Source: Candidatus Baltobacteraceae bacterium (GTDB lineage: Bacteria; Vulcanimicrobiota; Vulcanimicrobiia; Vulcanimicrobiales; Vulcanimicrobiaceae). Taken from it: 64,000 nucleotides of DNA. Positions 43,158-45,587 of this stretch are shown here, in pieces. Where the stretch lies: assembly GCA_036489885.1 (NCBI GenBank), contig DASXEW010000003.1, positions 124,001 to 188,000 of the forward strand, given 5' to 3'. The translations under genes and the position numbers were made by a program. The notes under the pieces were generated by a model. The model was given only the letters and a program-made list of their open reading frames with translations. It searched no databases and was not told the origin of the DNA. The stretch's first letter is position 1; every line of letters starts with the position of its first letter.

Positions 43158-44285
43158 ATGACATCAAGGCGTTCGTTCATGTTTGGAGCCGCCGCAATGG
43201 GCTGCTGCGGCCACCTTGTCGCTGCGGGGCAGGCTGCGCTCGCGCAGAGCGCTCCCATGCCGCTCTTGCGCAAAGTGCCGACGATTCGTTACGAATCGGT
43301 TCCGAATTTGTTGACGTTACCCGACGATTTGTATTTGGGCGAATGCCCTGGCGTCGCGCTGAACTCCAAAGGACACATCTTCGTCTTCTCACGTGGAAAC
43401 TCGACGGGACCAGCCTATGCCGCGACCGCTTCGCAGCTGCTGGAATTCGGATCGGACGGAAAATTCATCCGCGAGATCGGCCATAACTTATATGCGTGGT
43501 CATTCGCCCACACCGTAAAAGTCGATCGCTACGACAATATTTGGTGCACGGATAAAGGCTCCGACATGGTGATCAAGTTCAAACCCGACGGACGCGTCGA
43601 CATGGTGTTCGGACGCAAGTTGGAAGCCTCGGACGAAGGCACCGGTCCGCTCAAGCATCCGAATCCGCCCTTGCCGGCCGAGAACGGACGCTTTCGCCAA
43701 GTTACCGACGTTGCATGGGATTCCGACGACAACGCATACATCAGCGACGGCTACATCAACTCGCGCGTTGCGAAGGTCGACAAGAACGGGAAGTGGCTCG
43801 CGTCGTGGGGCACGCCGGGAACCGGGCCAAGCCAATTCAGCACACCGCATAGCATCGCCGTCGATGCGCAGAATCGCGTCTACGTCGCCGATCGCGCCAA
43901 CCGGCGCATTCAAGTCTTCAATACGAAGGGCGAGTTCATTCGGCAAATCCATATCGACGTTGCGTACGACCCGAACACGTACGTCGCGATCGGCGACCGC
44001 CCGGCGGGCAAAGGGCTCGAGACCGGGACGTTCTCGCCCGGCGCGCCGTGGACGGTCGCGATCTCGCCGGGACCAAAGCAGTATCTCTTCGCTTCAGATT
44101 CATATCCGGGGCGGATCTACAAGATGACCCTCGACGGCGAGGTGATCGGCGTCTTAGGCGAGTCCGGAAAGCGGCTCGGACAGTTCGGCTGGATTCACGA
44201 GATGGTAGCGGCGTCGGAGCACGAGCTTTACGTCTCCGAGATCCTGAACTGGCGCGTGCAAAAACTCGTCCTGCATCCGTCGTAA
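43158..44285 (+). CDS. Tat-exported NHL-repeat beta-propeller protein
   Basis: A 375-residue protein with a twin-arginine signal (TSRRSFMFGAAAMGCCGHLVAAGQAALAQ; cleavage near residue 30) and NHL/peptidylamidoglycolate-lyase-like repeats: GVALNSKGHIFVFSRG, VKVDRYDNIWCTDKGSDMVIKFKPDG, VAWDSDDNAYISDGYINSRVAKVDKNG, PHSIAVDAQNRVYVADRANRRIQVF. It is folded before export and should act outside the cytoplasm, possibly as a lyase or binding scaffold. ATG 43158 has a strong GAGGAGGGG site; longer readings run antisense through the quinone reductase. A perfect -35 for hom begins 5 nt after its stop. Confidence 0.85.
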   Translation: MTSRRSFMFGAAAMGCCGHLVAAGQAALAQSAPMPLLRKVPTIRYESVPNLLTLPDDLYLGECPGVALNSKGHIFVFSRGNSTGPAYAATASQLLEFGSDGKFIREIGHNLYAWSFAHTVKVDRYDNIWCTDKGSDMVIKFKPDGRVDMVFGRKLEASDEGTGPLKHPNPPLPAENGRFRQVTDVAWDSDDNAYISDGYINSRVAKVDKNGKWLASWGTPGTGPSQFSTPHSIAVDAQNRVYVADRANRRIQVFNTKGEFIRQIHIDVAYDPNTYVAIGDRPAGKGLETGTFSPGAPWTVAISPGPKQYLFASDSYPGRIYKMTLDGEVIGVLGESGKRLGQFGWIHEMVAASEHELYVSEILNWRVQKLVLHPS

Positions 44286-44289
44286 AGGT

Positions 44290-44318
44290 TTGACAGAGCA
44301 GCACGCCTGTGCTAAAAC
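44290..44318 (+). promoter_or_regulatory. Sigma-70-type promoter of the hom attenuator
   Basis: TTGACA (44290-44295) is a perfect -35, followed by a 17-bp spacer and TAAAAC (44313-44318) as a 4/6 -10. Transcription should begin near 44325, placing the leader-peptide ATG at or within 2 nt of the 5' end, so the leader ORF would be leaderless. Confidence 0.7.
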
Positions 44319-44326
44319 CCTTACTC

Positions 44327-44410
44327 ATGACCCTCTCCATGTCGATGGCGATTACGATGTCGATGATTACGACTTGTCTGCGAGACGAGGCGGCATTCAG
44401 CGTACGCTGA
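44327..44410 (+). CDS. Leader peptide rich in Met, Thr and Ile codons (hom attenuator)
   Basis: A 27-codon ORF starting MTLSMSMAITMSMITT. Within its first 16 codons are five Met, four Thr and two Ile codons. Met, Thr and Ile are the amino acids derived from homoserine, whose dehydrogenase gene follows. This matches the logic of thrL-type leader peptides: ribosome stalling at the control codons when the charged tRNAs are scarce. The last 10 codons run over the antiterminator arm. No ribosome site precedes the ATG; translation is probably leaderless. Confidence 0.8.
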   Translation: MTLSMSMAITMSMITTCLRDEAAFSVR

Positions 44411-44441
44411 GATCGGGAGAGACCGAAAAATTGCCGCCTCG
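44386..44441 (+). promoter_or_regulatory. Antiterminator of the hom attenuator
   Basis: CGAGGCGGCA (44386-44395), inside the leader-peptide ORF, is exactly complementary over 10 nt to TGCCGCCTCG (44432-44441), which contains most of the 5' arm of the terminator. A ribosome stalled on the Met/Thr/Ile codons (44327-44374) leaves the first arm free, so this stem forms and read-through occurs. A ribosome reaching the stop at 44410 would mask it. No separate protector (1:2) stem was found. Confidence 0.78.
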
Positions 44442-44466
44442 CCTCTGTGCGAGGCGGTTTTGTTTT
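44434..44466 (+). terminator. Rho-independent terminator of the hom attenuator
   Basis: CCGCCTCGC (44434-44442) and GCGAGGCGG (44449-44457) form a perfect 9-bp stem with a CTCTGT loop, followed by TTTTGTTTT. It stands 15 nt before the hom ATG and shares its 5' arm with the antiterminator. Confidence 0.9.
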
Positions 44467-44480
44467 ATGGGGTTGACGTG

Positions 44481-45587
44481 ATGCTGGCTGCTCAGAAAAT
44501 CAAGGATGTTCCAAATCTCGGTTTACGGACCGCCGGTATGACGATCGGTCTGCTCGGTTGCGGCGTGGTCGGCGGAGGCGTAGCTGCACGACTCCTAACG
44601 ATGGAAACGCTGCTCGGAGTCCCGGTTCGGCTTGGCCGCGTGCTCGTGCGCGATCTGCACAAGGCGCGTCAACCTGAAGCCGTGATCCCGTTACTCACGA
44701 CGGACCCGAATGACGTGATCGGCGATGAAAACGTGCACGTCGTTGTGGAAGCAATCGGCGGTGTCGAACCGGCGCGCTCGTTCGTTGAAACCGCTCTCCG
44801 CGCCGGCAAGCACGTCGTCACCTCGAACAAAGCGTTGATCGCAGCGCACGGCGCGGCGCTGTCGCTCATCGCCCAGCAAAATCATGCCGCACTGCGTTAC
44901 GAGGCGTCGGTTGCCGGCGCGATTCCCGTCGTGCGAACGCTCAGCGAGATTCTCTCGGCCGAAGATGTCATCGAAATCGCCGGCGTGTTGAACGGTACGT
45001 CGAATTTCGTCGTCAACGCCATGCGCGACGGAAGTACGCTCGAAGATGCAATCCGGCGCGCGCAAGAAGCAGGTTATGCGGAGATCGATCCCAGCGATGA
45101 TCTCGACGGTGTAGATGCCGCGCGCAAGCTCGCCGTCCTCGCACCGCTCGCATTTCGCTGCCGCATCAACGACGCGCAGATTCTGCGCACGTCGCTCCGC
45201 ACGCTCAAGACCGAACATTTTGCCGATGCGCGCAAGCTTGGCGCGGCAATCGTGCCGCTGGCGCTGATTCGGCGCAGCGGCGAGCGCATCGAAGCAATGG
45301 TTTCGCCGGTGCTGGTGCCGGAGGATCACGAGTTCGGGCGCTTGCGCGGGCCCGAGAACGTGGTGCGCGTGCTAGGCACCCATTCCGGCACATTGCGATT
45401 TTCGGGTCACGGTGCGGGCCGCAGCGCTACGGCTTCGGCCGTGCTAGCCGATCTGGCCGAGATTGCGCGCCGTCGTGCTCGCTGGCAAGCGCAATCCGTC
45501 GCTCCGATCGACTTTCGTGAAACTACTCCGCGTGTGCCGGCGCTTTCGCGACAGGGCGATCTGCCCGTGTTCGAGTTCGAGGCCTAG
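44481..45587 (+). CDS. hom: Homoserine dehydrogenase
   Basis: A ~368-residue NAD(P)-dependent enzyme making homoserine, the branch-point precursor of Thr, Met and Ile. Nucleotide motif: IGLLGCGVVGGGV. Catalytic-domain signatures: SNKALIAAHG, YEASVAGAIPVVRTLSE, GVLNGTSNFVVNAM and PSDDLDGVDAARKLAVLA. It ends soon after the catalytic domain and lacks the C-terminal ACT domain that mediates threonine feedback in longer enzymes, consistent with control by transcription attenuation. ATG 44481 is chosen; ATG 44538 (MTIGLLGCG) is an alternative. A TTG in the terminator (44460) is unlikely. Confidence 0.93.
   Translation: MLAAQKIKDVPNLGLRTAGMTIGLLGCGVVGGGVAARLLTMETLLGVPVRLGRVLVRDLHKARQPEAVIPLLTTDPNDVIGDENVHVVVEAIGGVEPARSFVETALRAGKHVVTSNKALIAAHGAALSLIAQQNHAALRYEASVAGAIPVVRTLSEILSAEDVIEIAGVLNGTSNFVVNAMRDGSTLEDAIRRAQEAGYAEIDPSDDLDGVDAARKLAVLAPLAFRCRINDAQILRTSLRTLKTEHFADARKLGAAIVPLALIRRSGERIEAMVSPVLVPEDHEFGRLRGPENVVRVLGTHSGTLRFSGHGAGRSATASAVLADLAEIARRRARWQAQSVAPIDFRETTPRVPALSRQGDLPVFEFEA

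Follow-up and report, generated by a model that had tools for sequence, protein, structure and literature searches.

The locus described here raises the question of how a homoserine dehydrogenase gene is controlled when feedback inhibition through an ACT domain is not available. In the window, the 64,000-nucleotide stretch of DNA that was analysed (G000:C3:124001-188000), hom stands alone, with an NHL-repeat gene on one side and, on the other, a convergent gene that matches no Pfam family. In the encoded Hom, the NAD-binding and catalytic domains are present and the ACT domain is lacking. A paralogue elsewhere in the same genome (C3:1687912) has the ACT domain and no leader, and every leader-bearing Hom is without ACT. 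Since ACT is the domain that would permit feedback inhibition, control at the RNA level may take its place. Homoserine is the common precursor of threonine, and hence of isoleucine, and of methionine. An earlier note on this DNA had proposed an attenuator in front of hom that responds to these three amino acids, to which the branch point finally leads. Our results support that proposal. The attenuator is real and well supported by its sequence parts, their conservation, the match between leader codons and operon content, and a predicted switch point, and we consider it highly probable that this element controls hom and the homoserine branch through ribosome-mediated transcription attenuation. 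The features are collected in Table 1.

Table 1 Features of the hom leader region (positions in the window)
Feature	Positions	Strand	Basis and remarks
-35 element TTGACA	44290..44295	+	read directly from the sequence
-10 element TAAAAC	44313..44318	+	direct reading; 4/6 consensus; TG at 44310-44311 makes it an extended -10
Leader ORF, 27 codons plus TGA	44327..44410	+	translation; counterpart in relatives
Control codons 13-16, Met-Ile-Thr-Thr	44363..44374	+	a ribosome stalled here stands immediately 5' of the antiterminator arm
Weak candidate protector, 5' arm	44373..44379	+	pairs with 44383-44389; MFE of full leader
Weak candidate protector, 3' arm	44383..44389	+	pairs with 44373-44379; MFE of full leader
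Antiterminator 5' arm (region 2), codons 20-23	44386..44395	+	10/10 pairs; shuffle p=0.002
Antiterminator 3' arm (region 3), common to terminator	44432..44441	+	folding, shuffle test
Intrinsic terminator hairpin (regions 3 + 4)	44433..44458	+	10 pairs, one G-U
Terminator T-tract	44458..44465	+	direct reading; overlaps last stem base
hom, homoserine dehydrogenase without ACT domain	44481..45587	+	NCBIfam and Pfam; ATG at 44481 most likely start

The perfect TTGACA and the 17-nt spacing to the -10 element, both named in the earlier note, are confirmed by direct reading; the -10 is imperfect in that the usual final T is missing. The leader ATG follows 8 nt past the -10, and by all signs in the sequence the start codon lies at about +1, so that the leader would be leaderless. 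The relatives share this promoter layout (TTGAC-17/18-TGnTAnnnT-7-ATG), most of them having TTGAC(A/G), a spacer of 17 or 18 nt, TGnTAnnnT and about 7 nt to the ATG. A complete TGnTAnnnT ending 6-9 nt 5' of the leader ATG was found in 28 of 39 loci (mode of the distance from -10 to ATG, 7) and a Shine-Dalgarno-like string upstream of the ATG in one of 39, counts that are biased upward because promoter score and composition were used in choosing the leaders. A check free of this bias, made with the promoter-only pattern in the window's genome, gave six sites, three of them Met/Cys leaders, and none in the reversed control. The pattern TTGACA..TGnTA..ATG occurs at only two sites in that genome, again with none in the reversed control, and promoter patterns with one mismatch added few sites. 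The short and nearly constant gap without a Shine-Dalgarno site, in the window and in the relatives, fits the requirement of leaderless translation.

Some neighbouring observations concern promoters in general. The leaderless layout also precedes ordinary genes, named by eye as rplU-like (L173), BlaI-like (L172), SufC-like ABC ATPase (L189), DNA polymerase-like (L196) and AbrB-like (L197), and leaderless translation seems to be common in the window's genome. Leaderless mini-ORFs reading MPLG* or MPLGR* share the layout before an rpoB-like (L174) and an rpoC-like gene (L191), both likewise named by eye from sequence. Between terminator and hom there is a sigma-70-like match, TTGACG-16-GAAAAT (9/12, at 44473-44500 of the window), which could bypass the attenuator.

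The leader ORF encodes MTLSMSMAITMSMITTCLRDEAAFSVR. As had been claimed for this 27-codon frame, its first 16 codons comprise five Met (start included), four Thr and two Ile, i.e. 11 of 16, and one Cys codon follows Met-Ile-Thr-Thr. The composition lies beyond chance: across the six frames of the window this is the sole start-initiated 16-codon stretch with at least ten Met, Thr or Ile codons, and none turned up in 30 windows simulated with the same dinucleotide composition. In this short leader ORF, codons for the final amino acids of the downstream gene's pathway are abundant.

The antiterminator consists of ten Watson-Crick pairs out of ten, reached by none of 500 dinucleotide shuffles of the 3' part of the leader, and the perfect 10-bp helix of the earlier note is upheld. 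The overlapping terminator in front of hom is present as well, and the hairpin is followed by TTTTGTTTT. With one arm in common, the two structures are mutually exclusive. The whole leader folds better than shuffled sequences (z -2.7), as does the segment 44380-44465 alone (z -4.8). The statement that no protector stem is seen needs qualification: a 7-bp candidate appears in the MFE structure, yet its probability is about zero while only regions 1-3 exist, and the antiterminator is predicted at 0.98 before region 4 is made. The candidate is weak and predicted to lose to the antiterminator, and no protector of the trp type was found beyond it. This folding fits the further claim that the translating ribosome itself must block the antiterminator. 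Rfam searches, which covered the window leader, the attenuator loci and those hom loci that have no leader, found no riboswitch.

For a stall profile, the RNA left free by the ribosome at each codon was folded; the ribosome was assumed to occlude 12 nt starting at the first base of the A site. When any of codons 1-17 is in the A site, the antiterminator is predicted at 0.86-0.95 and the terminator at no more than 0.06; codon 18 gives mixed states, and from codon 19 on the terminator reaches 0.99. Every Met, Thr and Ile codon of the leader lies within codons 1-16, before the switch point. In the model, stalling frees region 2 and completion of the leader covers it, the switch falling between codons 17 and 19; this position is taken from the helix-based measure, a general measure of region 3 pairing being less specific. 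Without a ribosome, terminator and antiterminator are predicted to be close and to compete at equilibrium, so part of the argument depends on the antiterminator being the first of the two to form. As long as only regions 1-3 exist, the protector has a probability of about zero, and a transcript that is not translated is therefore predicted to enter the antiterminated state first. A similar computation with Escherichia coli thrL as control gave the same kind of profile, in which the drop occurs at the last Thr, from codon 15 to codon 17; there the terminator wins at equilibrium throughout, so that in thrL, too, only the folding order makes the switch.

In the mechanism that we propose, transcription would start at, or a few bases from, the leader ATG, and a ribosome would initiate directly on the AUG of the leaderless ORF. 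When tRNA-Met, tRNA-Ile and tRNA-Thr are sufficiently charged, it would pass codon 18 and cover region 2, region 3 would pair with region 4, and the T-tract would stop RNA polymerase short of hom. Under a shortage of any one of these amino acids, the ribosome would stall at a codon up to 16 and leave region 2 free to pair with region 3, so that the terminator would be blocked and hom transcribed.

Among 148 genomes searched, 86 gave a Hom match. A scan of genome contigs with the single protein gave no match, and a scan with the alignment returned Homs of many phyla together with one Eremiobacterota contig; we infer that the family belongs to the phylum Eremiobacterota. A leaderless leader ORF precedes an ACT-less hom in about 45 relatives of the family and class, and promoter spacing and terminator recur with it. 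A terminator of 7-17 pairs with a T-tract, at most 45 nt past the leader stop, characterizes the 39 scored loci, and several more were seen by eye. In 21 of these 39 loci the antiterminator helix exceeds shuffles (p<0.05; mean z 2.1); almost every Thr-type leader has a strong one, and in several Met/Cys leaders the helix, scored as a contiguous one, is weaker or broken. Against the window's terminator arm, the window's own region 2 scored 28 and 17 other leaders at most 20.5, which indicates that the arms changed together. The comparison across relatives that the earlier note had called for thus bears out its attenuator interpretation: leader ORF and terminator are kept, the alternative stem in most cases, and the stall codons of the window are Met-Ile-Thr-Thr. 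Where Homs lack the layout (L003, L006-L009, L013, L014, L018, L020, L028, L029, L038-L040 and L066), leaders were sought and not found, and the short ORFs there are taken as chance.

The same evidence bears on whether the hairpin merely terminates the upstream NHL-repeat gene (stop at 44285) and the short ORF arose by chance. The hairpin lies about 150 nt past that gene and could end its transcript, and the ORF has no Shine-Dalgarno site; however, a promoter lies in between, ORF composition and alternative helix exceed chance, and about 45 genomes whose upstream genes differ show the same arrangement in front of hom, which leaves this explanation a close to negligible probability. It is also very improbable that hom is controlled through its translation or through Rho instead of an intrinsic terminator. 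That idea draws on the nearest relative, G022 (Hom 56% identical), which has a Met/Ile/Thr leader and a long hairpin without a T-tract, followed directly by a Shine-Dalgarno-like AAGGAG; in the window and nearly all other loci, a T-tract follows the hairpin. At the G022 hom locus itself (L002 / L186, G022:C3) the leader is MSRWMIRSITIITGSEESRSGW and the hairpin has 18 pairs, and control there is possibly exerted at translation instead of termination.

The leaders upstream of ACT-less Homs fall into two kinds, one rich in Thr, Ile and Met (e.g. MPALCVIMTTTITTTTTLGEGRSGSTSA) and one rich in Met and Cys (e.g. MSRLASSMMMSSMCGMRMHVAGSS). Directly downstream of hom, metX or metY was found for 31 of 32 Met/Cys leaders, and met genes for none of the 13 Thr-type leaders (Fisher 2e-10, kinship ignored). 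In the Hom tree, the Thr-type leaders occupy two separate clades, one comprising the window and G022 and the other the genera g8 and g19, so the association of codons with operon content rests on at least two separate contrasts. The stall window of Thr-type leaders consists of 67% Thr, 14% Met and 13% Ile codons (94% together), that of Met/Cys leaders of 25% Met and 21% Cys.

These figures bear on whether the window leader is a thrL-like attenuator of the Thr/Ile kind, in which the Met codons are there by accident and the leader does not respond to methionine. The predominance of Thr over Met in Thr-type leaders of other genera speaks for this, as do the Thr-Thr codons nearest the antiterminator arm, and Met sensing is complicated because a shortage of methionine also limits initiation. 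On the other side, the window leader has four internal Met codons in 16, one of which, codon 13, lies inside the stall window; any stall up to codon 17 is effective in the predicted profile; and the Met/Cys-rich leaders before hom-met operons indicate that Met codons are used in this lineage. We regard the Thr/Ile-only explanation as possible, though rather doubtful, and infer that methionine itself is sensed.

It is very improbable that the leader acts mainly in trans, through the peptide or a terminated short RNA with targets of its own. Such a second role is reported for the trp leader of Sinorhizobium meliloti, peTrpL (PMC7298713), and the Thr-type tails LGEGRSGSTSA are alike among relatives. 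The conserved tail is explained by the RNA helix encoded there, however, and the tail of the window peptide, DEAAFSVR, has nothing in common with it; moreover, the peptides differ with operon content, as expected for codon sensing.

The window's genome contains three further leaderless Met/Cys leaders with terminator hairpins, at L176 (G000:C4:111745), L171 (G000:C3:217613) and L175 (G000:C4:34718), which precede metY and two cysI-type sulfite reductase genes. The metY leader is MSAHARMMTMAMCCFPRGSA, and those of the sulfite reductase genes are MLSVYAMMMCCISPLRGSA and MFSAHAIMMMCCISPLRGSA. Family-wide, candidate Met/Cys attenuators were seen before hom-metY or hom-metX at L015, L024, L041, L047, L053, L055, L068 and about 25 other loci.

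Among known systems, E. coli thrL is the nearest in kind. It, too, stands in front of a homoserine dehydrogenase gene and has control codons for Thr and Ile; these end just 5' of an antiterminator arm located in the last leader codons, and a strong protector is absent. The start of thrL is leadered, and thrL precedes a fused aspartokinase-Hom operon. As the earlier note had pointed out, Met codons set the window leader apart: it has four internal ones, and thrL, with eight Thr and four Ile, has none. There is no sequence relation between the two leaders, which come from different phyla, and the window leader did not match the Rfam threonine leader family at the gathering score. In its working the window element resembles thrL, but it lies outside the curated family. 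SAM riboswitches and T-boxes also control methionine biosynthesis through transcription termination, whereas the window leader and the related loci match no Rfam family.

Leaderless leader peptides have been reported in Streptomyces lividans (trpL1, ilvL, leuL and metL) and in other Actinobacteria (PMC8079986), which tempers the implied unusualness of a leaderless leader with Met codons. Their start codons lie at the transcription start, as proposed for the window leader, and their codons are amino acid-specific, as here; metL (MSTTSDRTPATEATTTPGARCMCRRMCAF) contains Met, Cys and Thr codons, but precedes the metNIQ importer without a typical intrinsic terminator, and no hom attenuator is reported in that study (PMC8079986). 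The short leaderless Cys-rich uORFs of mycobacteria (PMC4633059) and actinobacterial cys leaders (PMC1262725) resemble the Met/Cys leaders before cysI and metY in preceding sulfur genes. No intrinsic terminator was found with the actinobacterial cys leaders, whereas one is present here, and for threonine and methionine operons the same survey of Actinobacteria detected nothing of this kind (PMC1262725). Leader-peptide systems were at one time known only from Proteobacteria and Actinobacteria, plus a then new case in Firmicutes (PMC2965389). Among open-licence papers we found no report of attenuation in Eremiobacterota, and targeted searches of that literature for Met-codon leaders had no relevant result, S. 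lividans metL being the only proposed case found. Judged from sequence, what appears new here is the combination of a leaderless leader, three amino acids and an ACT-less Hom, within a group of leaders that extends to genes for methionine and cysteine.

A wider proposal, quite possible and offered tentatively, is a regulon of leaderless attenuators in Eremiobacterota in which methionine and cysteine are sensed at cysI, metY and hom-metY/metX, and in which a hom apart from met genes senses the whole homoserine branch (Met, Thr and Ile). As there is no strong protector, lack of initiator tRNA and stalls at internal Met codons would both lead to read-through. If true, this default read-through would do away with the conflict because of which methionine serves trp-type attenuators poorly as a signal. 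The set makes it directly testable how a Met attenuator copes with a shortage of initiator tRNA. Methionine control by leader peptides is nearly unreported, and here dozens of candidates occur in one family of a little-studied phylum, with codon content tracking operon content. The pairing of leaders with Homs that lack ACT suggests that protein-level feedback has been traded for feedback at the RNA level.
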